From Clostridia bacterium (lineage in GTDB: Bacteria > Bacillota > Clostridia > Christensenellales > Aristaeellaceae), in NCBI GenBank assembly GCA_017410445.1, contig JAFQQU010000297.1:1-37866 (forward strand): a stretch of DNA of 37,866 nt, in the 5' to 3' direction. Positions within the stretch are counted from its first letter, which is position 1. The number at the start of each line of letters is the position of its first letter. Made by a program: the position numbers and the translations under genes. This document shows positions 4,676 through 27,134 of the stretch, in pieces. The notes below the pieces were generated by a model that did not search any database, was not told the origin of the DNA, and saw nothing but the letters and a program-made list of their open reading frames with translations.

Positions 4676-5635
4676 ATGCGCAAGATTCTTTCCCTGGTGC
4701 TTACCCTGGTTCTCCTGCTCTCCGTCATGGCGCCCTTCGCCTCTGCGGAAGCGGGCCTGTCCGACGACGTCGTCATCCTGTTCACCAACGACGTCCACAC
4801 CTACATCGACAACCCCATCAGCTACGACGTCATTACGGGCGTCAAGGCCGAGCTGAAGAAGCAGTATGCCAACGTGCTGCTGGCCGACGCCGGCGACCAT
4901 ATTCAGGGCACCGCGTACGGTTCCATGGATAAGGGCGAGACCATCATCAAGCTCATGAACGCCGCGGGCTACGACGTCGCCACGCTGGGCAACCATGAGT
5001 TTGACTACGGCATGGAAGGCTGCATGAACGTCATCGAGTGGGCCGAGTACCCCTATGTTTCCTGCAACTTCTATCATGAGGACTACTTCGTCCGCAATGA
5101 GAACGTGCTGGACAGCTACAAGATCTTCGAGTGCGGCGCGCAGAAGATCGCCTTCATCGGCATCACCACCCCCGAGACCTTCACCAAGTCCACGCCTGCC
5201 TACTTCCAGGATGAGACCGGCGCGTACATCTACGGAATTGCCGGCGGCGAAGACGGCGCTCTGCTGTATGCCGACGTTCAGGACGCGGTAGACGCGGCCA
5301 AGGCCGAAGGCGCGACCACCATCATCGCTCTGGGCCATCTGGGCGTAGACGAAGCCTCCGCCCCCTGGACCAGCAAGGAGACCATTGCTCAGGTTTCCGG
5401 TCTGGACGCCTTCATCGACGGCCATTCCCACACCCTGATCGAGGGTGAAGAAGTTGCGGATAAGGACGGCAACGCCGTTGTTCTGGCTCAGACCGGCGAA
5501 TATTTCGACCGCATCGGCATGATGGTCATCGACGCCGAGACCGGCGCGATTACCGTTGATATGATCGAGGTCAACGAGCTGACCGAGACCACTAAGGACG
5601 CCGAGGGCAAGGACATTACCAAGGTCATCGGCTAA
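4676..5635 (+). CDS. Secreted 5'-nucleotidase / metallophosphatase, N-terminal half (ends at an in-frame TAA)
   Basis: 319 residues, starting 18 bases after the first base of an AAAGGAGG ribosome site. Residues 1-25 are a signal peptide (KxL start, long Leu/Val core, ASA-EA cleavage site). The calcineurin-like phosphoesterase domain is complete: FTNDVHTY (metal-binding Asp and His), DAGDHIQG, LGNHEFDYG, ALGHLG and DGHSHT. Proteins of the UshA/YfkN type hydrolyse nucleotides outside the membrane for phosphate and nucleoside uptake. The reading frame stops at TAA 5633-5635 and continues in the same frame as the C-terminal half, so this is one gene split by a single nonsense codon. The half may still fold as a metallophosphatase but lacks the substrate-binding domain. 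Confidence 0.85.
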   Translation: MRKILSLVLTLVLLLSVMAPFASAEAGLSDDVVILFTNDVHTYIDNPISYDVITGVKAELKKQYANVLLADAGDHIQGTAYGSMDKGETIIKLMNAAGYDVATLGNHEFDYGMEGCMNVIEWAEYPYVSCNFYHEDYFVRNENVLDSYKIFECGAQKIAFIGITTPETFTKSTPAYFQDETGAYIYGIAGGEDGALLYADVQDAVDAAKAEGATTIIALGHLGVDEASAPWTSKETIAQVSGLDAFIDGHSHTLIEGEEVADKDGNAVVLAQTGEYFDRIGMMVIDAETGAITVDMIEVNELTETTKDAEGKDITKVIG

Positions 5636-5650
5636 GAGCTGGTATCCGAT

Positions 5651-6490
5651 ATGTATGCCGGCGAGAAGTGGATATCCGACGAAGCCGTTGCTTCCATCAA
5701 GGACGGCTGGATGACCGCCATCGACGAGCAGCTGGGTCAGGTCATCGGCTCCACCGCGCTGACGCTGGACAACTACACTGCCGATGGCAAGCGTCTGGTC
5801 CGCAGTCAGGAAACCAACACCGGCGACTTCGCTGCCGACGCGCTGTACTGGCTGTTCGACAGCATGGATCTGGATGTTGACGTTGCCATCATGAACGGCG
5901 GCGGCGTACGCAACAAGGCCGTTACCGGCGAGATCTCCTACAAGGTCTGCAAGAACATCCACACCTTCGGAAACGTTGCGTGCCTGCAGACCATCACCGG
6001 TCAGCAGCTGCTGGACGCTCTGGAGTGGGGCGCGCGCGGCGTTGGCACCGGCGAGGAAATCGGCGGCTTCCTGCATGTTTCCGGCATTACCTATAAGATT
6101 GACAGCGCCTATCCGCAGTCTCTGGTTGCCGACGACAAGGGCGTTTGGGTAAGCGGCCCGACCGCCGGCTACCGCGTACACAGCGTCATGGTTTACAACA
6201 AGGAAATCGGCGCTTACGAGCCCCTGGACCTGACCGCCAATTACAACCTGGCCGGTTACAACTACACCCTGCGTGATCTGGGCGACGGCTTCGCCATGTT
6301 CGACGGCGCGGTCAACGTACTGGACTACGTCATGGAGGACTACATGGTTCTGGCCAATTACGTTCAGGCCTTCGAGGGCGGCGTAATCGAGGCGGCCAAC
6401 TCCCCGCTGCTGGCCAAGTACGCCGGCATGAAGCTTGACTACGGCACCGTCGACGGCAGCGGCCGTATCGAGATGGCTCCCGTCAAGTAA
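5651..6490 (+). CDS. 5'-nucleotidase C-terminal domain, separated from its N-terminal half by one stop codon
   Basis: 279 residues from ATG 5651, in the same frame as the preceding half; only five codons lie between the TAA and this ATG, and they read naturally as protein (E-L-V-S-D). It carries the 5'-nucleotidase C-terminal (specificity) domain: SQETNTGDFAADAL, NGGGVRN (substrate loop), the TFGNVACLQTITGQQLLDALE helix and SGITYKID. There is no signal peptide and only a weak GAG-type ribosome site, so independent translation would give a cytoplasmic fragment without catalytic metals. Best regarded as the lost half of a disrupted gene unless the stop is read through or is a sequence error. 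Confidence 0.8.
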   Translation: MYAGEKWISDEAVASIKDGWMTAIDEQLGQVIGSTALTLDNYTADGKRLVRSQETNTGDFAADALYWLFDSMDLDVDVAIMNGGGVRNKAVTGEISYKVCKNIHTFGNVACLQTITGQQLLDALEWGARGVGTGEEIGGFLHVSGITYKIDSAYPQSLVADDKGVWVSGPTAGYRVHSVMVYNKEIGAYEPLDLTANYNLAGYNYTLRDLGDGFAMFDGAVNVLDYVMEDYMVLANYVQAFEGGVIEAANSPLLAKYAGMKLDYGTVDGSGRIEMAPVK

Positions 6491-6510
6491 TCGTTCATAC
6501 GAATATAGAT

Positions 6511-6552
6511 CGTCCGCCGCAGTGCATGGAGCATTGCGGCGGACGGTTTTTT
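6511..6552 (+). terminator. Rho-independent terminator after the nucleotidase
   Basis: A GC-rich stem beginning CGTCCGCCGCA and closing with TGCGGCGGACG, followed by a run of six T. It separates the plus-strand nucleotidase from the convergent DUF4367 gene. Confidence 0.9.
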
Positions 6553-9807: not shown

Positions 9808-10893
9808 TTAGTCGAAGAATACCGGCTTTCCGGTCTTGGAGGAGACGTAAATGGCTTCCAGAATTTCGGAAACCACCATGGCCTGCTCGGGCTTGACGAT
9901 CTGCTCGGTGTCATTGACGATTGCGTCAATCCACGCTCTGGCTTCGGCCTCAGCGGGGCTCAGGGAAGCACCGTCGTAGAAGGCAACGCCGCCCGCGGAG
10001 CAGTCGACGTCGGAGACGATCTGGCGGCCCAGCTCGACCTTGTTGATGCGCAGTTTGTTGTTCTTCAGGGACAGGCCGGCCTTGCTGCCGCACAGTACGC
10101 AGCTGCCTTCCTGAATGGGTTCGTCGGTGTTCAGGGCCCAGCTGGTCTCCAGCATGATGGTGGCGCCGTTCTTCATGCGGATGAAGGCGCAGGCGGCCTC
10201 TTCCAGCGGAGTGGTGCTGACGCCGTTGTCGCCCCAGATGTTGCCGGCTTCGGGATGCTCCAGTTTCTTGTGGGTCTTGCCGACGACCATCTCGGGCTCG
10301 TAGTTGTTCATCAGATACAGGGTCAGGTCCAGAGAGTGAGTGGCGATATCGATGATCGGACCGCCGCCCTGAGCTTCTTCATCCAGGAATACGCCCCAGT
10401 TGGGGGTGCCGCGGCGGCGAATGGCGTAGCAGTTGGCATAGTAAATCTCGCCCAGCGCGCCGCTCTCGATGTACTCGCGGGCATACTGAGCCTGGGGCTT
10501 CATGCGGTGCTGATAGCCGATGGCGAGCTTCTTGCCGGTCTCGCGGGCGGCGGCGCACATCCTGCGGGCGCCTTCGGCCGTCTTGGCCATGGGCTTCTCA
10601 CACATGACATGCTTGCCGGCGTGGAGGGCGTCGATGGTGATTTCGGCATGCTCCCGGTTGGGGGTCAGAACATGAACCACTTCGATGTCTTCGATGGCCA
10701 GAAGCTCTTTGTAATCGGTGCAGACAAAGGCATCGGGGGTGCCGAACTTTTCCTTTGCCTTCTGCGCGCGCTCGGGAATCAGGTCGCAGAAAGCAACCAT
10801 GCGGACGTTTTCAACCTTGGACAGGGAGGGCATGTGCTTGTTATTGGCGATGCCGCCGCAACCGATGATGCCGACTTTAACGATTCTTGCCAT
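9808..10893 (-). CDS. Gfo/Idh/MocA family NAD(P)-dependent oxidoreductase
   Basis: 361 residues from ATG 10893-10891, with AAAGGAGTG 6-7 bases upstream. N-terminal Rossmann domain (about 1-125): VGIIGCGGIANNKH dinucleotide loop and the CEKPMAK motif (catalytic-site Lys of the family). The C-terminal domain (about 126-361) has GGGPIIDIATHSLDL, with the Asp and His of the sugar-oxidation site. Members oxidise or reduce sugars, inositols or glycoside intermediates in the cytoplasm. It follows the huge glycoside hydrolase gene on the same strand after 138 bases, so it may act on sugars that hydrolase releases. It has its own -10 box. Exact substrate unknown. Confidence 0.92.
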   Translation of the reverse strand: MARIVKVGIIGCGGIANNKHMPSLSKVENVRMVAFCDLIPERAQKAKEKFGTPDAFVCTDYKELLAIEDIEVVHVLTPNREHAEITIDALHAGKHVMCEKPMAKTAEGARRMCAAARETGKKLAIGYQHRMKPQAQYAREYIESGALGEIYYANCYAIRRRGTPNWGVFLDEEAQGGGPIIDIATHSLDLTLYLMNNYEPEMVVGKTHKKLEHPEAGNIWGDNGVSTTPLEEAACAFIRMKNGATIMLETSWALNTDEPIQEGSCVLCGSKAGLSLKNNKLRINKVELGRQIVSDVDCSAGGVAFYDGASLSPAEAEARAWIDAIVNDTEQIVKPEQAMVVSEILEAIYVSSKTGKPVFFD

Positions 10894-10914
10894 AGGGAAC
10901 ACTCCTTTGTTTAT

Positions 10915-10938
10915 ATTATACCGCTGCCTGACAGACAG
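10915..10938 (-). promoter_or_regulatory. -10 box and palindromic candidate operator before the oxidoreductase
   Basis: TATAAT on the minus strand (10915-10920) is followed upstream by CTGCCTGACAGACAG (10924-10938), an imperfect palindrome of the form CTGnCTGnCAGnCAG. The palindrome fills the -10/-35 spacer, where a repressor would block polymerase. The -35 box is poor. Confidence 0.5.
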
Positions 10939-11031
10939 GGTATTATTGCATTGGGTTTCTCCGGGCGGGATTTGGGTTTCCGGGCCCTGTTCATGAAAGA
11001 ACGGCGAACGGGCCGCTGTCCGTACAGTTGA

Positions 11032-13950
11032 TCAGAGGTCGATTCCGAAGCGGACGAAGGAATATCTCTCGCGGAACAGCCGGCACTGCTCGTCCTTCCA
11101 CATGTTTTCCAGCGAGAAGGTCACCGGGCTGACTCCGTAGGGCTCCGGATCGATGAAGTGATGCGGGCCCAGCAGGTTGCGGGGCGAATTGGTCAGCTTC
11201 AGCGCAATCCGGTTTTCACCTTCGGTAAGATAAGGCGTGAGATCTGCATGGCGGCGGAACAGGAGCGTATCGGCCCTGACGCCGTTGACGGTGATCTCGC
11301 AGGCGGAATAGCGGCCGTTGACGAACAGCTCGGTAGGCATGCCCGGGCGGTAATCATAGACCGTTTCCGCTTCGATGCTGCCGCTGAAGAAGGGATAGCC
11401 GTCGGCGACGATATTGGTCAGGTCGATTTTTTCGGTCTGCGGGGCGATGGTGAATTCTCCGTCGTAGCAGAAGGAGTTCTTAACATCCGGCTTCAGATGT
11501 TCTTTGTCGATGTTGATGCGGAAGCCGCCCGTGAGGTAGATGCTCTCGATTTCCGTATCGAAGCACAGGCAGTTGCGCAGCGATTCCGATACGCCGCCAT
11601 ACAGTACGTAGAATACGTAATCGCGCTGATAGTAGTCGATGTGCAGAACGATTTCGTTGCGGCCTGGCTTCACGTAGGGCGCGACGTCGGCGGTGGTGAA
11701 GCTGCGGTCCAGCCACCACGGTCCGTTGATCTCGATGGGCGTTCCGTTGACGGTCACGCTCTTGTAGCGGGAGGGCTCGAACGCAGCCCGGATCGACTGG
11801 GGCAGGCTGTCGACGGTGAAGCTGTAGCGCAGATACAGATCGCCGCGGTAGCGCTTTCTCAGCAGCATGTCGCGGATCAGAATGATCGGACGCGGCTTTT
11901 CATAGACGACGCCGTCGTAGGACAGCTCGGCGTAGTCCAGATTGATCATGTTTTCGGGCGCGTTCACCAGCCGGAAGCCGTTGTTCAGCGGAATGGCTTC
12001 CTTGCCGCAGGCGGGCGCGGGCAGCAGCTGCGCGTCCGTTTCCGCTTCGACCAGCAGGTAGGCCTGAGAGTCCTCAAAGGTGAGCTGAACGGTGCAGGCT
12101 CCGTTTTCGGCGCGGCATTCAAGCGCGCGCACCTCCAGCGTATTCAGATCCAGCGCGCACAGGCTCTTTGCGCCGCGCAGCGAGACGGATACATTCTCGA
12201 GAAGATCGCCGGTCAGGTTGGTGACATAAACCACACGGCCGTGCTCGGTACAGCGGGTCATCTGACGCAGCTGAGGCACATTTTTGCCGCCGCAGGAAAT
12301 CATGGTTTCGGCGGTGGCGCGGATATCCTCGAAGGAGCAGGTGGACTTAAGCCAGGAGAGATCGGCCTTCCGTCCGTCGATGCGGGTGGGCGCCTGGCCG
12401 AACAGCCAGACCTTGCCGCCGTTTTCCATGTATTTGCGGAGCATTTCAGCGGTGCAGCGGTCCAGCGAATCCATCGCGGGAACGATCACATGATCATAGC
12501 TGCACAGGCCCACTTCAATGCTTGCGCCCGAGACCTTTGCCATATCGGCCATCATGCATTCGTCGCCGAAATGATAGGGAATCTGGTTGTCGGAAAGCGC
12601 GCTGTTGAGGGCGTACAGATCGGTCTGCAGCTGCTTGATGGACTCCGCATCCTCCTTGCGCTTGTAGGTGAGGTAAGCGCTGTGGATGGGGTGCACGACC
12701 AGCACGCGCGCCTGCTCCCTGCCGCGGGAGAGGATATAGCCCAGATTGTTGAAATACTCGTTGAATTCGGCCATGTATTCCTGCCAGGGCAGATGCTCGG
12801 AATAGAATCCGGGATGATCGCCCTTGCGCTGACCGCGGATGGAATAGGGATACAGATGCTGGCACATCAGGTTGACGCCGTTTGCATACTGCAGGTCTGC
12901 GATGCGCTTGAGCTCGTTGGCGCTTACGTCCCAGCCGCAGCAGGCGAACATCTCGGACAGCGCCTTTTTCTTGCCCAGCTGCGCGCAGACCGAGCCCAGC
13001 TGGCGGCCGGCGATATCGGTAGCCAGCGCGCGGCCCAGATAGTCAATGCCCGGGATGTGCTCATAGGCGTAGAAGGGCATGACGCCGCCGCAGCACCACA
13101 TCTGGCCGTGCAGATTGCTCTCCTCAACGGCATGGCCGGTCAGCTGGCAGCCGTTCTTTTCGCACCAGTCATAAACCTCTTTGATAAAGCCCTTCGTGAA
13201 CAGCTCGTGGCACAGGCGGTAGTAATCCCAGCGGAATTCCTCAGCGCCCTCAAAATCGACGAACAGCGCGGGCAGCAGGTCCAGAACGTCATAGCCGTAC
13301 CGGTTCATGAACTGTGCCGGCATGGTATCGGACCAGGGCGTCGCCCAGCGGTAATACTGCGGCTCGTCCACGAAGAAGCCGGGCATGTGCTTTCCGAAGC
13401 CCACGCGCTTTTTGTATTCCTCATGGGTTGCCTGAATGAATTTCTGCGTGATGGAGGGGTCCATGGTATCGACGTAGGATTCGTCCCATCCCTGAATGAT
13501 GGCGGTATATTCGGATACGCCCTCCTCAGGCGCGGTCACTCTGCGGCATTTGCCGCCGCTGATGACGTAAGCGCCCAGAAGGTGCTCGTCGGCAGGGAAA
13601 TCCCCGGAGGTTTCGATCTTCAGGAAGGTGGCCCAGTTGGCCTTGTCCTTCAGGAGGATGCCGCCGGCAAAGCCGCTCGGCCAGCCGTTTTCATCATAGC
13701 ACCAGGCTTCCATATCGAGCTTTTCGGCTTCCTTGATGCAGGCCTTGATGCAGTCGAACCATTCCTCGCTCAGATATTCGGTCTCCAGGCCGCCGCGGGC
13801 GTGCATGAAGAAGCCGTTCATCTTGAGCTTGTGCATGACGTGAATCTGCCTGCAGAGTTCCTCGGGATCGAGCTTGTCGTTCCAGCTCCAGAAGGGGATG
13901 CTGCCGTATTCCCGGGAATGCTTGCGGATCTCCTGAACGAATCTTTGCAT
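11032..13950 (-). CDS. Very large GH106-like glycoside hydrolase (alpha-L-rhamnosidase type)
   Basis: 972 residues from ATG 13950-13948, with GCAGGAGG 9 bases upstream. The N-terminal TIM-barrel region (about 1-420) has the typical start FWSWNDKLDPEEL, NGFFMHARGGLETEYLSEEWF and WCYDENGWPSGFAGG, then GFFVDEPQYYRW with its acidic residues. The middle (about 430-620) resembles a beta-galactosidase-trimerisation-type domain, and the C-terminus carries beta-sandwich modules (jelly-roll blocks around TPIEINGPWWLDRS and NEIVLHIDYYQRDY). The layout fits the GH106/GH2-like sandwich family that removes rhamnose from plant or bacterial polysaccharides. No signal peptide, so probably intracellular. GH106 is my best match; a related unclassified family is possible. 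Confidence 0.85.
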   Translation of the reverse strand: MQRFVQEIRKHSREYGSIPFWSWNDKLDPEELCRQIHVMHKLKMNGFFMHARGGLETEYLSEEWFDCIKACIKEAEKLDMEAWCYDENGWPSGFAGGILLKDKANWATFLKIETSGDFPADEHLLGAYVISGGKCRRVTAPEEGVSEYTAIIQGWDESYVDTMDPSITQKFIQATHEEYKKRVGFGKHMPGFFVDEPQYYRWATPWSDTMPAQFMNRYGYDVLDLLPALFVDFEGAEEFRWDYYRLCHELFTKGFIKEVYDWCEKNGCQLTGHAVEESNLHGQMWCCGGVMPFYAYEHIPGIDYLGRALATDIAGRQLGSVCAQLGKKKALSEMFACCGWDVSANELKRIADLQYANGVNLMCQHLYPYSIRGQRKGDHPGFYSEHLPWQEYMAEFNEYFNNLGYILSRGREQARVLVVHPIHSAYLTYKRKEDAESIKQLQTDLYALNSALSDNQIPYHFGDECMMADMAKVSGASIEVGLCSYDHVIVPAMDSLDRCTAEMLRKYMENGGKVWLFGQAPTRIDGRKADLSWLKSTCSFEDIRATAETMISCGGKNVPQLRQMTRCTEHGRVVYVTNLTGDLLENVSVSLRGAKSLCALDLNTLEVRALECRAENGACTVQLTFEDSQAYLLVEAETDAQLLPAPACGKEAIPLNNGFRLVNAPENMINLDYAELSYDGVVYEKPRPIILIRDMLLRKRYRGDLYLRYSFTVDSLPQSIRAAFEPSRYKSVTVNGTPIEINGPWWLDRSFTTADVAPYVKPGRNEIVLHIDYYQRDYVFYVLYGGVSESLRNCLCFDTEIESIYLTGGFRINIDKEHLKPDVKNSFCYDGEFTIAPQTEKIDLTNIVADGYPFFSGSIEAETVYDYRPGMPTELFVNGRYSACEITVNGVRADTLLFRRHADLTPYLTEGENRIALKLTNSPRNLLGPHHFIDPEPYGVSPVTFSLENMWKDEQCRLFRERYSFVRFGIDL

Positions 13951-14119
13951 ATGACTACCTCCTGCGGCCAATGCCGCTGACGAAATGTGTGCTGCCGGCG
14001 CGGCAGAGAATGCTTCGGTTCAATGGAGCAGTCAGGGCGAATCCCTTGAAAAACATAGCGCGGCCGCGGGCGTTCCTTCATCAATTCATAGTGAAAGAAT
14101 CCGCATGCGCCGCATTTTT

Positions 14120-14149
14120 ATTCTACCACAGGAAGATCGGCACTGTCAA
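14120..14149 (-). promoter_or_regulatory. Promoter of the large glycoside hydrolase gene
   Basis: On the minus strand TTGACA (14144-14149), 18-base spacer, TAGAAT (14120-14125). It predicts a long 5' leader of about 160 bases before ATG 13950, in which I recognise no riboswitch. Confidence 0.7.
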
Positions 14150-14186
14150 CAAAACGCCTTCGCGGAAGAACGGCAGTCTTCTGCTA

Positions 14187-14247
14187 GTGAATTCCCAAAG
14201 TAAACGCCACAGTGGCGTTTGAGGTGGCGTTTAGTGTGGGAATTCAC
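14187..14247. repeat. 61-bp near-perfect inverted repeat
   Basis: Arms of 24 bases (14187-14210 and 14224-14247) pair at 22 of 24 positions around a 13-base loop. The outer arms are GTGAATTCCCA/TGGGAATTCAC and the inner arms TAAACGCCAC/GTGGCGTTTA; the loop holds another copy of GTGGCGTTT. It sits between the divergent promoters of the hydrolase gene and the B12 operon. No adjacent T run makes it a classical terminator. It may be a two-sided hairpin, an operator or a miniature mobile element. Confidence 0.75.
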
Positions 14248-14285
14248 TTGTAAATAAAAGATGCTGGGTTAATTGAGATAAGCAA

Positions 14286-14314
14286 TTGACGCTGACTGCG
14301 AGATGCGATATAAT
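14286..14314 (+). promoter_or_regulatory. Promoter of the cobalamin biosynthesis operon
   Basis: TTGACG (14286-14291), 17-base spacer, perfect TATAAT (14309-14314), directly upstream of the cobalamin riboswitch. Confidence 0.88.
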
Positions 14315-14334
14315 TTAATCACAATTAAATATCT

Positions 14335-14528
14335 GTCAGTTTTCAGTGCCTCGCAGGTTCAATGCCGTTTGGGCAACTATGCGGGGGTAAAAGGGAATCA
14401 GGTGCGAGTCCTGGGCGATCCGGTCACTGTAAGCGGGAAGAAAGGCTGCATATGCCATTGTGCCAAGAGGCATGAGAAGGCGCAGCCGGACAATGATCCG
14501 CAAGTCAGGAAACCTGCTGAAAATGATT
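14335..14528 (+). ncRNA. Cobalamin riboswitch controlling the cbiB-cobC operon
   Basis: Leader RNA with the conserved cobalamin-aptamer landmarks: GGGAATCAGGTGCGAGTCCTG near 14393-14413, the B12-box-like GGTCACTGTAAGCGGG near 14422-14437, and the closing AAGTCAGGAAACCTGC at about 14501-14516. Binding of adenosylcobalamin or a related cobalamin is expected to switch off the operon. A terminator hairpin at 14604-14638 is the likely expression platform. The exact aptamer class was not determined. Confidence 0.93.
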
Positions 14529-14603
14529 GGTGGATGGCTTCCGAAGAAGGCCTGATGACCATGAGCCTGCGGGTCTTGTTTGTTGTAGAATTGGCTCGGT
14601 GTG

Positions 14604-14638
14604 CGTCTGCTTTCGATGGAAGCAGGCGTTTTTCTTTT
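14604..14638 (+). terminator. Riboswitch-linked terminator before cbiB
   Basis: CGTCTGCTT and AAGCAGGCG form a 9-bp stem (one G-T pair) followed by TTTTTCTTTT, between the aptamer and cbiB: a typical transcription-attenuation platform. Confidence 0.88.
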
Positions 14639-14667
14639 GCTTGGATGAAAGTGAGGGGCAGATGAGT

Positions 14668-15627
14668 ATGGGTTTTGTGGAAATGAATGTTGCGGCGATG
14701 ATGGTAGGGTTTGCGCTCGATCTGATCATTGGTGATCCGGAGGGCTGGACGCATCCGGTCATCTGGATCGGAAAATGGATCTCGTTCATGGAAAAGAAAT
14801 TGCGTAAAAGAGGCGGAAATCTAAGGTTTTCTGCGCTTGTGCTGACGGCTTCGACGGTTCTGATTTCCATGATTTGCACGGCGGCGGTGCTGGGCGTTCT
14901 TGCGCTGGTTCATCAGGCGGCGCTGTTTGCAGGAATGTGCGTTGTGTCGTGGTGGTGCCTTTCGGCAAAGTGTCTTGCGGTGGAGGCGAAGGGCGTTTAT
15001 CGTGCGCTTGGCGTTTCGGTAGAAAAAGGTCGCACACAGGTGGCGCGCATCGTCGGGCGGGATACGACGGAGTTGTCTGAGGAAGAAATCACCTGTGCGA
15101 CCATTGAAACGGTCGCGGAGAATACGACTGACGGCGTGATATCGCCGATGCTTTATCTGTTGATCGGCGGCCCGGTGCTGGCGATGGGCTTCAAGGCGGC
15201 CAGCACACTGGATTCTATGGTGGGGTATCTCGATGAAAAGTATCGGGATATCGGCTGGTCCAGCGCCAAGTTTGACGATGTACTGAACTATATCCCTGCC
15301 CGTATCTGCGGATTCCTTATGTGTATCGGCGCATTTTTCACCGGAATGGACGGAAAGAATGCGCTGCGCATCATGAAGCGCGATCATGCAAACCATCTGA
15401 GTCCCAACTGCGCGTGGAGCGAATCGGCGGCGGCGGGCGCGATGCACATTCAGCTGGGCGGCACGCATACCTATTTTGGAAAAGTGGTTGAAAAGCCGAC
15501 CATCGGCGATCATGACAGGCCGGTTGAAAAGGACGATATTCTCCGGGCAAACAAGCTGCTGTATGCTTCGGCTGTCATGATGGCAGGCATTGCGGCGATT
15601 GCCGGACTGATCCTCTGGATGATCTGA
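14668..15627 (+). CDS. cbiB: Adenosylcobinamide-phosphate synthase CbiB
   Basis: Membrane enzyme that attaches (R)-1-amino-2-propanol phosphate (made from threonine phosphate by CobD) to adenosylcobyric acid, giving adenosylcobinamide phosphate. 319 residues with several membrane helices and family blocks: LDLIIGDPEGWTHPVIWIGK, VGRDTTELSEEEI, ATIETVAENTTDGVISPMLYL, AASTLDSMVGY, PNCAWSESAAAGAM and LGGTHTYFGKVVEKPTIG. AGGGG at 14654-14658 favours ATG 14668 (9-base spacing) over ATG 14662 (3-base spacing); both are in frame. First gene of the riboswitch-controlled B12 operon, 14 bases from cobD. Confidence 0.95.
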   Translation: MGFVEMNVAAMMVGFALDLIIGDPEGWTHPVIWIGKWISFMEKKLRKRGGNLRFSALVLTASTVLISMICTAAVLGVLALVHQAALFAGMCVVSWWCLSAKCLAVEAKGVYRALGVSVEKGRTQVARIVGRDTTELSEEEITCATIETVAENTTDGVISPMLYLLIGGPVLAMGFKAASTLDSMVGYLDEKYRDIGWSSAKFDDVLNYIPARICGFLMCIGAFFTGMDGKNALRIMKRDHANHLSPNCAWSESAAAGAMHIQLGGTHTYFGKVVEKPTIGDHDRPVEKDDILRANKLLYASAVMMAGIAAIAGLILWMI

Positions 15628-15641
15628 TCGGAGAGAATGAT

Positions 15642-16697
15642 ATGATACACGGCGGCAATGTATGGCAGGGTAATTCTCCGGCGCAGTGGCTGGACTATTC
15701 GGCGAATATCCGCCCGGAAGGTGCGCCCGATTGGGTGAAGGATGCGCTCATGGGTGCGATGGACAAGCTTTCTTATTATCCGGATCAGGAAATGAAGCGC
15801 GCGAGGCAGTCGCTGTCTGCTTATCTTGATTTACCGGCGGAATACGTTTTGCCCACGGCGGGCGGAATCTCGGCGATTAATCTGGCGACGCACCTTCCCG
15901 GCACGGGTATGTTGCAGTTCACGCCATGCTTTGCGGAATATTCTATGCTCAGCGAAAACCGGGGAAAGACCATCGGCAATATTCCGCTTCTGACAGGCAG
16001 GCATATCATTGGCGACCCGGTAGAACAGGCGAAAGGACGCTTGTTTGAAGGCTGTACGGTATGGCTGTGCAATCCGCTCAATCCCATCGGCTGCGCATTT
16101 ACAGTTGAGCAGATCGAGAAGCTGCTGATGCTTGTTGAAGAAAAGCACGGCTGGCTGGTGGTGGATGAAGCGTTCATCGAATACTGTCCGGATCATTCGG
16201 CGGTCGGTCTGACCCAAAAACACGAACGGCTGCTGGTCACCGGTTCCATGACGAAGATTCTCGGCATCCCCGGCGTGCGGTTGGGGTATCTGTGCGCTCA
16301 GCCGCAGGTGCTGGTCGAAATCGGCAAATATCAACTCACATGGGAAGTGAGCTGCTTTGCGGAAGCAGTGCTCTGTGCGCTTCCGAAGTACAAAGTGGAT
16401 GTGCAGGCTTACTGCGAAGTGAATGCCTGTCGCCGGGAACATCTCAGAAAAGGTTTGGAAGGACTGGGCGTTTACGTGTATCCGTCCGAAGCGGCATTTG
16501 TGCTGGCTGACTTTGGAAATCCGGTGCATCGACTTATTGAAAAGCTGAAAGAAAGAGGGATTCTCGTCCGGCAATGCATGAATTTCGAGGGTGTGAACAA
16601 CGGCTGCCATCTGCGCCTTGCAGTCAAGGATGAAAGTTCAAATGATAGATTGATCGAAGCGATACGGGAGGAAATGATATGCGCGGAAAATCTCTGA
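15642..16697 (+). CDS. cobD: Threonine-phosphate decarboxylase CobD (class I PLP aminotransferase fold)
   Basis: Makes (R)-1-amino-2-propanol phosphate, the side-chain donor for CbiB, from L-threonine O-3-phosphate. 351 residues beginning IHGGNVW, as in CobD proteins, followed by LDYSANIRPEG. PLP-binding features: NPLNPIG, the VVDEAFIEY Asp, and the Schiff-base Lys205 in SMTKILGIPGVRLGY. It could be confused with histidinol-phosphate aminotransferase, but the HGG start and the position between cbiB and cobQ make CobD clear. GGAGAGAATG precedes the start. Its last 19 bases overlap cobQ. Confidence 0.93.
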   Translation: MIHGGNVWQGNSPAQWLDYSANIRPEGAPDWVKDALMGAMDKLSYYPDQEMKRARQSLSAYLDLPAEYVLPTAGGISAINLATHLPGTGMLQFTPCFAEYSMLSENRGKTIGNIPLLTGRHIIGDPVEQAKGRLFEGCTVWLCNPLNPIGCAFTVEQIEKLLMLVEEKHGWLVVDEAFIEYCPDHSAVGLTQKHERLLVTGSMTKILGIPGVRLGYLCAQPQVLVEIGKYQLTWEVSCFAEAVLCALPKYKVDVQAYCEVNACRREHLRKGLEGLGVYVYPSEAAFVLADFGNPVHRLIEKLKERGILVRQCMNFEGVNNGCHLRLAVKDESSNDRLIEAIREEMICAENL

Positions 16698-18214
16698 TGT
16701 TCATGGGAACAGCTTCATCGGTGGGCAAATCCATGCTGTGCGCGGCGGTACTGCGCATCATGAAGCAGGACGGTTATTCCGTCGCGCCGTTCAAATCTCA
16801 GAACATGGCGCTCAACTCCTTTGCCACCAAGGAAGGGCTTGAAATGGGGCGGGCGCAGGTCACGCAGGCGGAGGCGGCAGGCCTTGAGCCTTCCGTGCGC
16901 ATGAATCCGGTACTGCTCAAGCCGACTTCCGACAGAAGATCGCAGGTCATCGTGGGCGGCAAGCCCATCGGTACCATGTCAGCCATGGAATATGACAAGT
17001 TCAAGCCTCAGCTGCGCGAGATGATCAGAGAGATCTACGATGATCTGGAAAAGGACGTAGATGTCGTCGTCATTGAAGGCGCGGGCAGTCCGGCCGAGAT
17101 TAATCTGAAGAAGGGCGATATCGTTAATATGTCCATGGCGAAGACGGCGGATGCGCCGGTGATCCTGATCGGCGATATCAATCCGGGCGGCGTATTCGCA
17201 TCGCTCTACGGCACGGTCAAACTGCTGGACGAAGAAGAACAGAAGCGCATCAAGGGTATTGTCATCAATAAATTCAGAGGCGACGTAAAAATCCTCGAAC
17301 CGGGTCTGAAGATGATTGAGGATTTGCTGAACATCCCGGTGATCGGCGTCATCCCGTGGATGGACATTGACATGGAAGATGAAGACAGCGTGACCGAGCG
17401 CTTCACCCAGCGCAGTGGAAAAGGGCAGATCCGCACCGCCATCGTGCGGCTTCCGCATATTTCCAACTTCACGGACTTCAATCTGCTGGGCAATGAGGCG
17501 GACGTTTCGGTGTATTACGCTACCCGCGCTTCGGAACTGCAGGATGCGGACATCATCATCCTGCCCGGCACGAAAAACACCATTGAAGATCTGAACTGGC
17601 TCAAGCAGCACGGTCTGGCGGACGAGATCATCCGTCACAGCCGCAAGGGCGGCATGGTCATCGGTATTTGCGGCGGCTATCAGATGCTGGGGCAGTCGCT
17701 TCACGATCCGCTGCACACCGAATCCCGCATTCCCGAAATGGCGGGGCTGGGGCTGCTGGACTTCTCCGTCACCTTCAACAAGGACAAGACCACCGTGCAG
17801 GCAAACGGCGTGATTGACTGCAAGGAAGGATGGATGCAGGAGCTGAACGGCATTCTGTTGGACGGATATGAGATTCATTCGGGCGTGAACACCTTTGGCG
17901 AACACTGCGTGCCGTTCCTTAGGCTCAATGGCCGCGAGGAAATTGATGGCATCACCAACAAACAGGGCAATATCATCGGCTCGTATTTGCACGGCATTTT
18001 TGATACAGGTTCTTTCTGGCGCGCGCTGATCAATCGCATCCGCGTGCAGAAGGGCATGGATGTAAATGACGAAGAAGTGCTGACCATCCAACAGTTCCGC
18101 GACCGGGAGTTTGATCGGCTAGCGACTATTGTTCGGCAGAATATCGATATGGAATCTGTGTATAAGATTGTGCGCGGCGAGGAAGTGCCCTGCGGACGGT
18201 GGGACAATGATTAA
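16679..18214 (+). CDS. cobQ: Cobyric acid synthase CobQ/CbiP
   Basis: ATP- and glutamine-dependent amidase converting adenosylcobyrinic acid a,c-diamide into adenosylcobyric acid (side chains b, d, e and g). 511 residues. N-terminal dethiobiotin-synthetase-like P-loop domain: GTASSVGKSMLCAA, KSQNMALNS, VIEGAGSPAEINL. C-terminal class I glutamine amidotransferase domain with nucleophile Cys331 in GICGGYQMLG and His438 in SYLHGIFD. An AGGA site lies before the ATG. It overlaps cobD by 19 bases and cbiA by 8, consistent with tight translational coupling in the B12 operon. Confidence 0.96.
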   Translation: MRGKSLMFMGTASSVGKSMLCAAVLRIMKQDGYSVAPFKSQNMALNSFATKEGLEMGRAQVTQAEAAGLEPSVRMNPVLLKPTSDRRSQVIVGGKPIGTMSAMEYDKFKPQLREMIREIYDDLEKDVDVVVIEGAGSPAEINLKKGDIVNMSMAKTADAPVILIGDINPGGVFASLYGTVKLLDEEEQKRIKGIVINKFRGDVKILEPGLKMIEDLLNIPVIGVIPWMDIDMEDEDSVTERFTQRSGKGQIRTAIVRLPHISNFTDFNLLGNEADVSVYYATRASELQDADIIILPGTKNTIEDLNWLKQHGLADEIIRHSRKGGMVIGICGGYQMLGQSLHDPLHTESRIPEMAGLGLLDFSVTFNKDKTTVQANGVIDCKEGWMQELNGILLDGYEIHSGVNTFGEHCVPFLRLNGREEIDGITNKQGNIIGSYLHGIFDTGSFWRALINRIRVQKGMDVNDEEVLTIQQFRDREFDRLATIVRQNIDMESVYKIVRGEEVPCGRWDND

Positions 18215-19559
18215 GAAGGCTGGAAGAATCCTGATTGCCGGAACGGGCAGCGGATGCGGCAAGACTACTGTGGTCTGTGCGATTCTGCAGGCACTCAAAA
18301 ATCGCGGGCTGGATGTTGCTTCTTTCAAGTGTGGGCCCGATTATATCGACCCCATGTTCCATTCGGAGATCATCGGTACGCCCAGCACCAATCTTGATCT
18401 GTACTTTGCGGGCGAAGAACTTGCCCGGGGACTTTTTCTGAAACATTCGGCTGAGCTGAACGTTATCGAGGGCGTGATGGGCTACTATGACGGTTTATCC
18501 ATGCAGTCAGCGGAATCCTCCAGCTGGCATGTGGCGCAGACGCTTGAAGCTCCCGCAATTCTGATCGTGAACGGACAGGGGATGGCGCTGTCCACCGCCG
18601 CAGTCGTCAAGGGGTTTCAGGCCATGCGTAGTCCCAGCGGCATTGCGGGCGTTATTCTGAACCGGGTGTCGCCCATGACGTATCCGCAGCTGAAAGCAGT
18701 CATCGAGCAGGAATGCAGCGTGCATGTTTACGGTTATATGCCGACCAACGAAGCATGTAGTTTGGAAAGCCGCCATCTGGGCCTTGTAACCGCGCAGGAA
18801 GTATCCGATTTGCAGGAAAAGATGCAGACGCTGGCAGCGCAGGCCGAAAAGAGCATCGAATTGGATAGACTGATCGACCTGATGAAAGCACAGCCTGCGA
18901 TGGAAGCGGATATTCCCGTTGCAAGCAAGATCGCCAGTGTGCGCATTGCCGTGGCAAAGGATAAGGCGTTCTGCTTCTATTATCGGGACAATCTGGAATT
19001 GCTGGAGGAACTGGGCGCGACGCTCATTCCCTTCTCGCCGTTAGAAGACAAGGAACTGCCAGAGTGCGATGGATTGTATCTGGGCGGCGGCTATCCGGAA
19101 CTGTATACCGAACAGCTTTCACAGAACATCTCCATGCGGGAATCGGTGAAAAACGCTGTGCAGGACGGACTTCCGACCATTGCCGAGTGCGGCGGCTTCA
19201 TGTATCTGACAGACCGCATCGCGGATTCGGAAATGGTCGGAGTAATCCATACTGGGTGCAGGGATATGAAGAGGCTGGTGCGGTTCGGATATGCGGAGCT
19301 TTCAGCAGATAAAGACAGTCTGCTCTTCTCAAAAGGAGATATTGTGCGTGGACATGAGTTTCATCATTGGGACGCGGTTCTGCCCGGGAACGATCTGACA
19401 GGCAAAAAGACTTCCGGGCGCAGCTGGCAGTGCGCTTATGCAACGGATACCCTGTATGCGGGCTATCCGCATCTGTATTTCCGAAGCAATCCGGCGCTTG
19501 CTGAGCGGTTTGTTCTCCGATGTTATGAGAGGAGGCTTTTGCGTGAACACGGAAAATGA
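18207..19559 (+). CDS. cbiA: Cobyrinic acid a,c-diamide synthase CbiA
   Basis: ATP-dependent amidation of the a and c side chains of cobyrinic acid using glutamine, the step before cobalt reduction and adenosylation. 450 residues from ATG 18207, which overlaps the cobQ stop by 8 bases; an earlier in-frame start inside cobQ has no ribosome site. P-loop domain: GTGSGCGKTTVVCAI, FKCGPDYIDPMFH, VIEGVMGYYDG. C-terminal amidotransferase domain: GGGYPELY, nucleophile Cys328 in AECGGFMYL, and RGHEFHHW with the general base. Full length. Confidence 0.96.
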   Translation: MIKKAGRILIAGTGSGCGKTTVVCAILQALKNRGLDVASFKCGPDYIDPMFHSEIIGTPSTNLDLYFAGEELARGLFLKHSAELNVIEGVMGYYDGLSMQSAESSSWHVAQTLEAPAILIVNGQGMALSTAAVVKGFQAMRSPSGIAGVILNRVSPMTYPQLKAVIEQECSVHVYGYMPTNEACSLESRHLGLVTAQEVSDLQEKMQTLAAQAEKSIELDRLIDLMKAQPAMEADIPVASKIASVRIAVAKDKAFCFYYRDNLELLEELGATLIPFSPLEDKELPECDGLYLGGGYPELYTEQLSQNISMRESVKNAVQDGLPTIAECGGFMYLTDRIADSEMVGVIHTGCRDMKRLVRFGYAELSADKDSLLFSKGDIVRGHEFHHWDAVLPGNDLTGKKTSGRSWQCAYATDTLYAGYPHLYFRSNPALAERFVLRCYERRLLREHGK

Positions 19560-21833: not shown

Positions 21834-21937
21834 ACAAGGGGAATCAGCAATACATCATTTAATTCTACTATGAATGTAGTATTCCAGACAACATACGAGG
21901 TTCTGCAATAGTGACTCGATACACAAGGAGGCAAAGC

Positions 21938-24900
21938 ATGCTGAGGTCTGTATTTGTATCAAGTACCTTTCAAGATATGCATGGAGAAAGGGATGCGATC
22001 CGAACAAAAGTAACCCCCACAGTGAATGCGATGGCGGAGAAATACGGCGAATCTGTCGCAACATGCGATCTGCGGTGGGGCGTGGATACGTCGGAGATGA
22101 GCGAAGAGGGCAGCGCCCGGAAAGTGCTTGACGTCTGTCTGGACGAGATAGACCGGTGCAGACCGTATATGATCGTCATTCTAGGCTACCGGTATGGATG
22201 GATTCCCGGCAGGGAGTTGATCAAGGGAGCTGTACACGACAAGGACGGCTTTTCCCTGTCGGATGCGGATATCAGCGTAACCGCGCTGGAGGTGGAATAC
22301 GGCGCGCTGTCCGCAGCCGATCTGGACCGTACACTGTTCTACTTCCGGGAAATCGATGGCTCCTGCGATGCGGTCTATCAGGCCGAAACAGCGCAGCACC
22401 GTCAGCGGCTGGAAGCGCTCAAGACCCGGATTCTGTCTCGCCCGGGAGCCCATGTCCGCACCTATCACGTTCGTTTGGGCGAGGGATATGCGCAGAGCAT
22501 GACCGCTTTTGCCGGCATGGTGACAGAGGATCTGTGTGCGCTGCTTCACAGGGAATGGGAGGAAAACGCCCGGCTGGATGCGTATGCACTGGATCAGAAA
22601 AAACATTGGAATTTGCTGGAAGGCAAGAGAGCTCAGTTCCTTTCAAGAGATGGGCTGCTTTCAGCTTGCCTTGAGCATATGCGCAGCGCAGGGGCCAGAA
22701 TTCTTCTGCGGGGCGCATCCGGCAGCGGAAAGAGCACTCTGCTCAGCCGCATCGGCGATGAGATGCGGCAGGCAGGACAGGTTGCAGTGCCGGTATTCTG
22801 CGGATATACGCCTCTTTGCAGCTCGGGCTTTGACGTGCTGCGGTATATGGTATGGGAATTGGAGCGTTTGCTCTGCTTGCCCCATTTTGCCGACACAGCC
22901 GGAAAACACAGATCCAGCCCCGCAGTCTGGCTGGAGCATATCGACCGACTGCTGGAGCAGTATGAAGCGTCCGGTTTGCCGGAACTCGCCTTCCTGATCG
23001 ATGGTCTGGATCAGCTGATTCAGGACGATATTGCCCGGGAACTCGCTTTCATTCCGCGTCGGAAGGACGGACGCATCCGCTTCGTCGTGAGTACGACATC
23101 CATGGACACGGAGGTCATGGATTTTCGTCAGATCGATGTGGGAGACCTCTCACTTCCGGAGCGCAGACAGGTCATCCGGGGAATCCTGCGTACCCGCCAC
23201 CGCGAACTGGCAGCTGCAGCCATTGAACACCTGGCCGGCAAGGAAAGCGCCCGTCTTCCCCTGTATCTGAGCCTGGTGCTGCAGCGGCTGCTGATGATGA
23301 GCTACGAAGATTTCCGGCACATTGCCGCTACAGGCGATGGAATGAACGCCATCACCGCCTATCAGATGCGCCTGATTGACGCATGTCCCAAGGGGCTGGA
23401 GGACATGTCCGCCTATATTCTGGATCACGCATCCCGACAGATCGGCGGCGCATCCATGCTGGAAGCGGCAACGCTTCTGGCTGTCAGCCGAAGAGGCCTG
23501 CGCCTGACTGATCTGGAAGGATTGATGCACGGGCGCGGAATGGAATGGAAGCCTCTGGACGCCGCAGCCTTCATCCAGTACATGGGTCCCTCTTTCATCC
23601 ATCGCAGCGACGGCCGCATCGACTTTGCCCACAAGAGCATCCGGCAGGGCTTTTTGCTGCGCTGCGGCAATGTGCAGCCCCTTCACAGGGTGTTGGCAAA
23701 ATGGATGCTGGAGCTACCCGAAAACGATGAAGTGCGCGTTCAGGAGCTGGTCTGGCATCTGATTCAGGCCGACATGAAGGAAGAATTTGCCGACACCATC
23801 GCCCTGATGACGCATGACAACATCAATCTCACCGGCATCACCAAGGACGCCGTGGACGCGGTTATGAGCGACGGCGGCGCGTGGATTACGGAAGTGGTGA
23901 AGGAAGTATTTGCACAGAACTCTTTCCCGCATCTGACCCATTTTATCGAATTCCATATCATGTTCAACATCGTCAACAACCGGGCGAATCTGGATATCAA
24001 GCGCCGCCTGGGCGAACTGATGCTCGAGGCGGTACAGAAGCGCTGCGCCATCCATGAAACCTTCGGTGGGATCTGGGAGATCTCCGTGGCATGCGACCGT
24101 CTGGCCGGCATTCACCGCCAATATGAAACCCGGGATCATCTCCTTTTTGCGCAAAAATGCTCCAAACAGAGCCTGATGATCCGCAAACAGCTGTTGAACA
24201 TGATGGCTGAGCTGAATACAGAGGAAAAACAACGCAGGCACTGGCTCAATGAGCTGCAGGCCAGCGGAACGCGTATCCAGCAGACGCCGAGCGCAGAGCA
24301 GCTTCAGGGACTGACGGACGGCTTTATCAGCGAGCTCAGAAGAGGAGTCTGCGTCGTATCGGAGGATATGGCCGCTGCATTGGAATCGGGCGACATAGAG
24401 GAGCAGTTCGAGGCGCTGAAATACCTGCAGGACAGCCTGCGGATGCGCGAAGAAATATATCGCACCAAGGGCGATCATGTGTTTATTGAGGACGATGAGG
24501 TTGAATTGGCGCGTATCTACGGCAGAGCCGTGCAGGTCTGCCTCTCCCTGAAAGACGATAAGTATCTGCGGCTGGCCGGGAAGTACTGCGCCCGCGCGAT
24601 GCAGGTGAGTGAGAACAGTCTGAAAAAGGGAGCTACGCCCGAACGGCTGGAGGGCTGGTGTGCAGCCTGTGTCAGCCTGTCCACATGGCAGAAAACGCAG
24701 CCGGGCGGAATCGCCATGGCGCTGAAAACCTGCCTGAAGTGTCTGCCTGTGCTGGAAAAGCTGGATCTTCAAGCCCGCAGCGTCCAGAGCCAGACAAATC
24801 TGGCCGACGTCTGCAGCCGTATCGGCGATCTGTACAGCGCTCAGGGTGATCGGGCCCGGGCCGAGCAGTTTTATCGCCGGAGTAAAGGGTTGGTACAGGA

Positions 24901-25873
24901 CGTCGCCGCACGCCACAGCAGTCTGGCAGCGGAACGCAACGTAGTTGTCCTCAATCAGAGACTGATCCAGGAGGCGCACATCGATCCGGACGAGGGGCTT
25001 GATCCGGCAATGTCGCAGTTAATCCGCGCCAGCTTCAGCAAAGCACAGGAAATCTTTGTGCAGATGCGATCCCCGGAAGCCTGCGATCATCTGAAGGAGC
25101 TGTATTCAGAGATGATCCGCATGTTTGAGGAGGCGAAACATCTGGATGATACAGTCCGCAAGCGCATCCTGACAGAACTGAAGGTCTGCCTGCTGGAGAA
25201 TCGTCTGCTCGTCCAGAATCAGGATGATGATGATCTGCGCCATGCAGTGATCAAGCTGGCAGAGTTGGCCGAAACGCTGCATTCGGCGCAGGACAGCACG
25301 CTGCAATCCATTCCTCTGCCGCTTCAGGAGCTGCTGACGGGCATAGGAATCACTTCTCAGCGGCTGACCGAGTCGCACGCCAAACGCGCCTGCCAGCTGA
25401 TCCGCCTTGCACTGCAAGTATCTGATGATCTGGTTCAGCGCACGGGCGAGCGGGCGGACCGGGATATACTGGCTGTCACGCTGGCTAAGGCGTCGATGAT
25501 CTTCCTTACCGGCTCGCCGGAGGAATGGCCGAAAATAAACGAGCGGATGCGCGTTACCGCCCTGGAGCTGATGCGCGAAACCGGTGACGAGAAATACACT
25601 CAGATGGTCGCCATGGCGGAGATCGGCAGACAATTCGCTTCCATGAGGAGAGAGGCCTCCGGCCCGGCGTCCGCCCCTCGTTCTGACCGGCCAATCGAAA
25701 AAAAGGCGCCGGCTGAATCGGATGAAATCAGCATTCTGCGCCGCAAAATCGAACAACTGACCGCAGAAAAGGACAGTCTGACCGGCCTGCACACGCTCGC
25801 TGCCCGCCTTCGCCTTGATCGCCAGATCAAAAGCCTGCAGCAGCAGTTGAACCAGCTGTTGGGAGATGCATAA
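21938..25873 (+). CDS. DUF4062-NACHT STAND NTPase, candidate anti-phage defence protein
   Basis: 1311 residues, starting at ATG 21938, 6 bases after AAGGAGG; an in-frame GTG at 21911 lacks a ribosome site. Residues about 2-125: DUF4062 (SVFVSSTFQDMHGERDAI, CDLRWGVDTSE, VILGYRYGW). Residues about 245-420: NACHT-type P-loop ATPase with Walker A GASGSGKST (259-267) and Walker B LAFLIDGLDQL (350-360). Then a winged-helix-like region and a long helical part with TPR-like segments (for example near 955-985, SRIGDLYSAQGDRARAEQFYRRS) and a C-terminal coiled coil (about 1255-1311). STAND proteins act as switch ATPases that oligomerise on sensing a trigger; in bacteria many are Avs-type defence sensors. 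The architecture recalls eukaryotic TEP1/NPHP3/NWD1 proteins. Defence is inferred; no separate effector gene is present. Confidence 0.87.
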   Translation: MLRSVFVSSTFQDMHGERDAIRTKVTPTVNAMAEKYGESVATCDLRWGVDTSEMSEEGSARKVLDVCLDEIDRCRPYMIVILGYRYGWIPGRELIKGAVHDKDGFSLSDADISVTALEVEYGALSAADLDRTLFYFREIDGSCDAVYQAETAQHRQRLEALKTRILSRPGAHVRTYHVRLGEGYAQSMTAFAGMVTEDLCALLHREWEENARLDAYALDQKKHWNLLEGKRAQFLSRDGLLSACLEHMRSAGARILLRGASGSGKSTLLSRIGDEMRQAGQVAVPVFCGYTPLCSSGFDVLRYMVWELERLLCLPHFADTAGKHRSSPAVWLEHIDRLLEQYEASGLPELAFLIDGLDQLIQDDIARELAFIPRRKDGRIRFVVSTTSMDTEVMDFRQIDVGDLSLPERRQVIRGILRTRHRELAAAAIEHLAGKESARLPLYLSLVLQRLLMMSYEDFRHIAATGDGMNAITAYQMRLIDACPKGLEDMSAYILDHASRQIGGASMLEAATLLAVSRRGLRLTDLEGLMHGRGMEWKPLDAAAFIQYMGPSFIHRSDGRIDFAHKSIRQGFLLRCGNVQPLHRVLAKWMLELPENDEVRVQELVWHLIQADMKEEFADTIALMTHDNINLTGITKDAVDAVMSDGGAWITEVVKEVFAQNSFPHLTHFIEFHIMFNIVNNRANLDIKRRLGELMLEAVQKRCAIHETFGGIWEISVACDRLAGIHRQYETRDHLLFAQKCSKQSLMIRKQLLNMMAELNTEEKQRRHWLNELQASGTRIQQTPSAEQLQGLTDGFISELRRGVCVVSEDMAAALESGDIEEQFEALKYLQDSLRMREEIYRTKGDHVFIEDDEVELARIYGRAVQVCLSLKDDKYLRLAGKYCARAMQVSENSLKKGATPERLEGWCAACVSLSTWQKTQPGGIAMALKTCLKCLPVLEKLDLQARSVQSQTNLADVCSRIGDLYSAQGDRARAEQFYRRSKGLVQDVAARHSSLAAERNVVVLNQRLIQEAHIDPDEGLDPAMSQLIRASFSKAQEIFVQMRSPEACDHLKELYSEMIRMFEEAKHLDDTVRKRILTELKVCLLENRLLVQNQDDDDLRHAVIKLAELAETLHSAQDSTLQSIPLPLQELLTGIGITSQRLTESHAKRACQLIRLALQVSDDLVQRTGERADRDILAVTLAKASMIFLTGSPEEWPKINERMRVTALELMRETGDEKYTQMVAMAEIGRQFASMRREASGPASAPRSDRPIEKKAPAESDEISILRRKIEQLTAEKDSLTGLHTLAARLRLDRQIKSLQQQLNQLLGDA

Positions 25874-26382: not shown

Positions 26383-27134
26383 TCCGTTCCTTTGTCATCG
26401 CCTTTTCTACCTATTCGCGCATACCAATGCCGCAGGTGGAATGGTCGGATGAAAACAGAAAGTATAGTATGTGCTTCTTTCCCCTTATCGGTGCAGTGAT
26501 TGGATTGATTCTGTGGGGATGGCTGTGCCTCTGCGACACGCTGAAAGTTGGAATTCTGCTGAAGGGCGCGGTCGGCGCAATCATTCCGCTGCTGGTCACA
26601 GGCGGCATCCATATGGACGGATTTATGGATACGTCTGATGCTATGGCCTCGTGGCAGCCAAAAGAGCGCAGACTGGAAATCCTCAAAGACAGCCATACGG
26701 GCGCGTTTGCCGTGATCGGCTGCGCGGGATATCTGCTGCTGTCTGCGGCGGTGTATGGTGAAATGCCCGTGCAGAGCGCGCCGATGCTGATGGGCGTTTT
26801 CGTGATTTCGAGGGCTTTGAGCGCGCTGGCGCTGGCGTTTTTCAAAAGCGCGCGTCCCGGCGGCATGATGGATGGCTTTGCCCGGACGGCGCACAGGAGA
26901 ATGGTGAGCATAACTGCGGCTGTATATGCTGTTTTCTGCGCTGTACTGTGGGTTATGTGCGGAAGAGGGATTGCTGTTGGATGCCTTGCGGCTACTGCGG
27001 CCTACTTTGCGTATTACCGGCATATGGCGTACAAGAATTTCGGCGGCGTGACGGGCGATCTGGCCGGATGGTTCGTGCAGATCACGGAGCTTGCGCTGGC
27101 GGTGGTCATCGTACTGGGAGGAAAGATACTATGA
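26373..27134 (+). CDS. cobS: Cobalamin synthase CobS (adenosylcobinamide-GDP ribazoletransferase)
   Basis: Integral membrane enzyme joining adenosylcobinamide-GDP with alpha-ribazole (phosphate) to make adenosylcobalamin (phosphate). 253 residues from GTG 26373, with AAAGGAGAA 6 bases upstream. Typical blocks: FVIAFSTYSRIPMP, FFPLIGAVIGLI, LLVTGGIHMDGFMDTSDAMAS, LEILKDSHTGAFAVIG, ARPGGMMDGFAR and GGVTGDLAGW (metal-binding Asp residues in the second and last sets), with about six membrane helices. Intact, although its substrate-making neighbour cobU is broken. ATGA overlap with the next gene. Confidence 0.95.
   Translation: MRVIRSFVIAFSTYSRIPMPQVEWSDENRKYSMCFFPLIGAVIGLILWGWLCLCDTLKVGILLKGAVGAIIPLLVTGGIHMDGFMDTSDAMASWQPKERRLEILKDSHTGAFAVIGCAGYLLLSAAVYGEMPVQSAPMLMGVFVISRALSALALAFFKSARPGGMMDGFARTAHRRMVSITAAVYAVFCAVLWVMCGRGIAVGCLAATAAYFAYYRHMAYKNFGGVTGDLAGWFVQITELALAVVIVLGGKIL

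Follow-up and report, generated by a model that had tools for sequence, protein, structure and literature searches.

The closest described counterparts of the locus analyzed here are UshA of Escherichia coli, human CD73 and the 5'-nucleotidase of Thermus thermophilus (PDB 2z1a), in each of which a metallophosphatase domain (PF00149) and a 5'-nucleotidase C-terminal domain (PF02872) follow one another within one chain. The effect of separating such domains has been described for a related enzyme, the 3'-nucleotidase CpdB: the isolated N domain is reported to keep its activity on 2',3'-cyclic nucleotides and bis-4-NPP while nearly losing that on 3'-AMP and dinucleotides, and the C domain in isolation is inactive (PMC7922932). 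The passage on linkers in a study of UshA/CpdB chimeras holds nothing usable on truncated domains (PMC8071527).

The window, by which we mean the whole stretch of 37,866 nucleotides that was analyzed, is one contig (C285) of a draft genome of an uncultured Clostridia bacterium (3.42 Mb in 331 contigs, 83.7% complete, 3.69% contamination). It carries a gene whose two halves both match the secreted two-domain 5'-nucleotidases, but where UshA, CD73 and 2z1a form one chain, the window copy is interrupted by a stop that follows residue 319. The explanation that we favor, and regard as likely, is that a single, recent nonsense substitution in the sequenced strain split a secreted two-domain 5'-nucleotidase of the UshA/CD73 type. 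A search of the literature for premature stops in gut metagenome genomes, or for a broken 5'-nucleotidase or ushA gene, found no published report matching the case.

Gene layout and reading frame

Sequence and translation of the window place the gene on the plus strand, running from the ATG at 4676 to an in-frame TAA at 5633-5635, after which 284 sense codons continue in the unshifted frame up to a second TAA at 6488-6490, with no further stop between the two (Table 1). When only frames that begin with a start codon are listed, the gene appears as two, of 319 aa (4676-5635) and 279 aa (5651-6490). The preliminary description had reported a single in-frame TAA inside a secreted 5'-nucleotidase, with no frameshift involved; its coordinates, frame and stop are correct, the halves match PF00149 and PF02872, and the frame stays unshifted to 6490, in agreement with alignment to intact homologs.

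Table 1. Features of the interrupted 5'-nucleotidase gene, in window positions.
Feature	Positions	Strand	Basis
Stretch containing a strong ribosome-binding site (AAAGGAGG), ahead of start codon	4655..4675	+	Sequence
Signal-peptide-like N-terminus, about 25 aa	4676..4750	+	Translation by eye; aligns with intact homologs
First half, 319 aa: signal-like start and metallophosphatase core	4676..5635	+	ORF, translation, Pfam
In-frame TAA	5633..5635	+	Sequence, homolog alignment, model of intact relative
First in-frame ATG past the stop	5651..5653	+	Sequence
Second half (284 codons), with the linker helix and the substrate-binding C-terminal domain of the 5'-nucleotidase	5636..6490	+	Translation, Pfam, structure
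Intrinsic-terminator-like hairpin, 19 pairs, 3' of the full gene	6507..6549	+	Terminator scan

Motifs like that of the ribosome-binding site (AAAGGAGG) precede the start codons of many intact homologs. The translated first half contains NDVH, DAGDH, GNHEFDYG, GHLG and DGHSH, which we take to be the metal-binding motifs of the metallophosphatase family. No export signal is evident in the second half itself, and inspection by eye found no Shine-Dalgarno-like sequence at normal spacing before the ATG at 5651, where re-initiation is possible but probably weak. The ribosome-binding site and signal-like start ahead of the first half, together with the terminator-like hairpin after the second, suggest that the gene was probably a single transcription unit originally; the hairpin is the one found in a scan that was overall not above chance (mean of 1.8 in shuffled sequences).

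Domain content and structure of the enzyme

Assignment of the halves rests on Pfam matches of the first to Metallophos (PF00149, E 4.8e-10) and of the second to 5_nucleotid_C (PF02872, E 5.1e-25, profile positions 15-157 of 158). When X is put in place of the stop, the translated gene can be aligned over almost its whole length with intact homologs, and this near full-length homology across the stop rules out two chance ORFs. Identity to the window gene is 74.5-78.6% for the three closest of 80 named homologous loci and reaches 80% for the closest intact homologs among the matches listed from a wider family search. The best named homologs lie in metagenome genomes titled Oscillospiraceae, Lachnospiraceae and other Clostridia, many of them from animal gut by title, and a DNA search of the bacterium's own genome returned one match only, the gene itself. 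With both PF00149 and PF02872 present, the intact form is predicted from its sequence to be a secreted two-domain 5'-nucleotidase of the UshA/CD73 type, of which the window copy lacks the single open chain, owing to the TAA at 5633-5635.

An intact relative that is 76% identical to the window gene (L034) was modeled with a mean pLDDT of 86, and its domain order and fold are those of UshA, CD73 and 2z1a: the model matched 2z1a with a Foldseek E of 1.6e-40, E. coli UshA (1oi8) with a query TM of 0.70, and also human CD73. The stop column corresponds to residue 319 of the model, within a strand (312-322) that is the last long one, part of a hairpin, ahead of the inter-domain linker helix (335-352). 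Judged from this model, the truncated product would consist of the signal and catalytic core, without the substrate-binding domain.

That the stop falls close to the domain boundary counts against a chance nonsense mutation, and is what would be expected of a functional split, in which the 319-aa product would act as a secreted phosphoesterase made of the catalytic domain only, with altered specificity, and the second half would be silent or restarted at the ATG at 5651. We consider such a split improbable. It accords with the placement of the stop after the metallophosphatase core, with the activity that CpdB's N domain retains in isolation toward 2',3'-cyclic nucleotides and bis-4-NPP (PMC7922932), and with the chains of related enzymes in PDB entries 3gve, 3jyf and 5eqv, which are only 339-341 residues long and, from that length, probably represent N domains alone. 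Opposed to it are the conservation of the second half as in intact relatives, where a silent half would decay in time, its want of an evident export signal or a good ribosome-binding site, the occurrence of such a split in none of the 80 homologous loci, and the same account of CpdB, in which the C domain alone is inactive and very little of the 3'-AMP and dinucleotide activities is left once it is removed (PMC7922932). Slightly less probable still is the stronger proposal that the stop is fixed and useful, the product being a secreted catalytic-domain-only phosphoesterase with other substrates and so a natural counterpart of the CpdB N domain. The predicted truncation would, like that domain, be a catalytic domain alone, but the CpdB N domain is a laboratory construct of a 3'-nucleotidase, whereas the single-domain product of the window is predicted from sequence. 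Because the isolated CpdB N domain keeps some activities, residual activity of the truncated product is, by analogy, possible.

Distribution of the stop among relatives

The named loci compared with the window gene were the best 80 out of 593 relatives, and in none does the aligned gene contain a stop; all 80 alignments span the site, with 79 covering at least residues 35-560. The stop column is occupied by a residue in 39 of these loci and by a gap in 41, which indicates that the segment around it is variable in length. Among 23 nearby homologs the column holds a sense codon in every case, and in 21 of them that codon is a single substitution from the stop seen in the window gene.

The wider search covered 300 genomes of the family, of which 148 had a match at E <= 1e-60. 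Four of the 150 match rows listed contain an interior stop, namely the window and rows from genomes G020, G232 and G125; on inspection the last looks like the natural end of its gene, leaving three truly interrupted rows including the window, which all differ from one another in both stop codon and position. The 11 nearest orthologs listed from that search (71-80% identity), at least one of which also belongs to the 80 loci, have no stop. Of the interrupted homologs, that of G020 (L158, contig C287) has an in-frame TAG right after the signal peptide, and that of G232 (L159, contig C7) has an in-frame TGA ahead of the DGHSH motif.

A conserved programmed split was rejected, given that the two other interrupted members differ from the window gene in both stop codon and place. 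Since the three interrupted rows share neither, the interruptions across the family have, as far as sequence tells, the pattern of random loss or error rather than that of a programmed element. Among the sequences compared, no other genome shares the stop, and this privacy, together with the conservation of both halves, supports recent nonsense mutation, one of the options put forward in the preliminary description. No genome of the same genus was found among 60 relatives, nor among the genomes listed from the 300 of the family search. In 18 related loci used for a neighborhood test, the nucleotidase itself was matched in all 18, and the 11 flanking ORFs had no tblastn match at 1e-8, so that synteny was uninformative. 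L162 (from G292) and L035 have sequence in common and probably represent a single record.

Readthrough, recoding and switching

If the TAA were read through, by programmed readthrough or by a suppressor tRNA, some full-length enzyme would be made, as the intact frame and intact second half would allow; the bin also contains one suppressor-type tRNA, with the anticodon CUA. That anticodon, however, decodes UAG and not UAA. The genome, which is incomplete, has 38 tRNA matches, of which 37 were called by ARAGORN (the other is partial, at a contig end), and no UUA anticodon is found among the 37. Three 100-base stretches around the stop fold no better than shuffled sequences (z of -0.3 to -0.5). 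TAA is, moreover, an ordinary stop across the window, where, of the 24 genes matched by Pfam at E <= 0.001, 8 terminate in TAA, 16 in TGA and none in TAG. Recoding of TAA was rejected on its normal use as a stop in the window and the lack of a UAA-reading tRNA among the 37 called, an outcome that upholds the earlier argument from normal TAA usage, and readthrough of any kind is very improbable. In loci of the same genome, 7 of 50 long-ORF stops are TAG, a crude count that includes spurious ORFs and from which no inference is drawn.

Phase-type variation, whereby the gene would be reversibly switched on and off, had also been offered as an option. Nothing was found in its favor: the lesion is a substitution, the stretch 5500-5780 yielded no inverted repeat, and there is no simple repeat or slippage tract at the stop. 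A 12-base direct repeat (5622-5633 and 5739-5750) is likely due to chance in coding sequence. A slippage or inversion switch was rejected for want of a suitable repeat, and we give phase-type variation hardly any credence.

Selection, age of the lesion and possible consensus error

Nei-Gojobori dN/dS between the window gene and six relatives is 0.16-0.28 for the first half and 0.16-0.29 for the second, as compared with 0.15-0.27 and 0.13-0.37 in the 15 pairs among the same six intact genes; synonymous distances are large (0.56-1.46), such that these ratios reflect the whole branch and are blind to short recent decay. A fixed 24-protein tree gave the window gene a terminal branch of 0.186 for the first half and 0.128 for the second, against 0.184 and 0.090 for its sister L035, 0.163 and 0.158 for L034, and 0.251 and 0.134 for L005. 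Both halves thus show purifying selection as intact relatives do, with decay seen in neither, which argues that the lesion is young or else a consensus error. Conservation of the second half argues, in turn, for selection on the full-length enzyme up to recent times, or up to the present should the base be an error.

In all, 169 of 5427 possible single substitutions in the gene (3.1%) create a stop, and by that arithmetic up to about 100 neutral substitutions could pass without a second one; the missing second stop therefore excludes only an old loss. With the stop absent from close relatives, no relaxed selection seen and no added stops, the gene resembles a recent nonsense pseudogene.

The same observations are shared by the reading in which the stop is a consensus error, arising from sequencing, assembly or strain mixing within the bin, while the organism itself has an intact gene. 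Both halves are conserved like those of intact relatives, no second stop lies in frame, and the genome is a fragmented draft with measurable contamination; a wrong consensus base in such a draft gives an identical picture, and this weakens the favored explanation. Substitution errors are nonetheless rare in a well-covered short-read consensus, and no other clearly broken gene was noticed among the Pfam-scanned genes of the window, in a survey that was not systematic and in which one CobU-like gene matches its profile only in part. We regard a consensus error as unlikely, yet as the main rival.

A phage-like segment and other observations

The CUA-anticodon tRNA belongs to a phage-like segment elsewhere in the genome, at about 9900-19100 of locus L156 (contig C314, 8000-27789), which encodes a Pol III alpha subunit, a Toprim-helicase, a PD-(D/E)XK nuclease and an integrase. 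The tRNA (L156 9911-9992, minus strand) is called tRNA-Pyl by ARAGORN; it has a long variable arm and was judged by eye to be leucine-like. Several genes of the segment are joined when TAG is read through, and the Pfam match improves in three of four tested: Toprim_2 from 2.7e-8 to 2.3e-11, PDDEXK_1 from 1.1e-13 to 1e-18, and AAA_24 from 2.3e-11 to 1.6e-14. For the polymerase, readthrough connects the HHH_6 piece with the remainder, and the scores do not improve. The first TAG of the polymerase faces leucine in all three phage homologs examined; against a leucine reading, the other two, near the less conserved end, face leucine in none of the three.

Eight genes of the segment were compared with three related viral contigs (L167 and L168, which give identical alignments and are counted as one, and L169); five were matched, four of which contain TAGs. 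Where a TAG of these relatives is opposite a sense codon in the segment's genes, that codon specifies leucine in 17 of 18 cases and threonine in one. Conversely, in 12 comparisons at the segment's own TAG codons the relatives show TAG five times, leucine four times, and glutamine, threonine and methionine once each. L169 (IMGVR_UViG_3300028833_005988) has its own CUA tRNA (13079-13163), called tRNA-Pyl despite a long variable arm, and none was found in the examined stretches of L167 and L168, both excerpts from longer contigs. The segment thus appears to decode TAG as leucine. Recoded gut phages in the literature read TAG as glutamine (PMC10607447; PMC9523058), and a full-text literature search found no report of TAG-to-leucine recoding in phages, which is not proof of novelty. 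The element merits its own study and, because a CUA anticodon reads UAG, is irrelevant to the UAA of the window.

Two further observations concern the cobalamin genes of the window. Amid them, 21911-25873 encodes a large protein with matches to DUF4062, a NACHT-type NTPase and, weakly, TPR, which we guess to be STAND-type and possibly involved in defense. The CobU-like gene at 26948-27460 matches only the C-terminal third of its profile (106-168 of 168), and if translation begins at a likely start near 27131, the protein would be about 110 aa long.

Paralogs, consequence and significance

Under the favored explanation of a recent nonsense substitution, translation would start normally and the product would be exported, ending after the catalytic domain, with the substrate-binding domain absent or present only as intracellular traces. 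The likely outcome, as predicted from sequence, would be that 5'-nucleotidase activity is lost or strongly reduced. Two distant paralogs remain in the same genome, neither with a stop in its matched part: a 538-codon frame on contig C313, 31% identical over most of the protein, and a 612-codon frame on contig C109, 37% identical over residues 2-121. Loss of the window nucleotidase may therefore be buffered, and the paralogs may make it tolerable. In short, the sequences show the stop, its privacy among those compared, the intact homologs, the conservation of both halves and the absence of stops from the matched parts of the paralogs; the reality of the base, the export and truncation of the product, the loss of activity and its buffering we infer.

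Like ordinary single-nonsense pseudogenes, the gene combines a private stop with an otherwise intact frame and paralogs elsewhere in the genome, and it differs from them in nothing tested, provided that the consensus base is real. Most likely, then, the case is ordinary: a recent nonsense mutation in a familiar type of enzyme, its chief rival being consensus error. By itself the finding is minor, in that one gene of one uncultured bacterium has been lost by point mutation, or misread. Its use is as a negative control for claims of stop-codon readthrough: continuation in the same frame and the presence of family motifs were insufficient, and what decided the matter was that the stop is private, together with selection on both halves, the tRNA complement and the use of stop codons.
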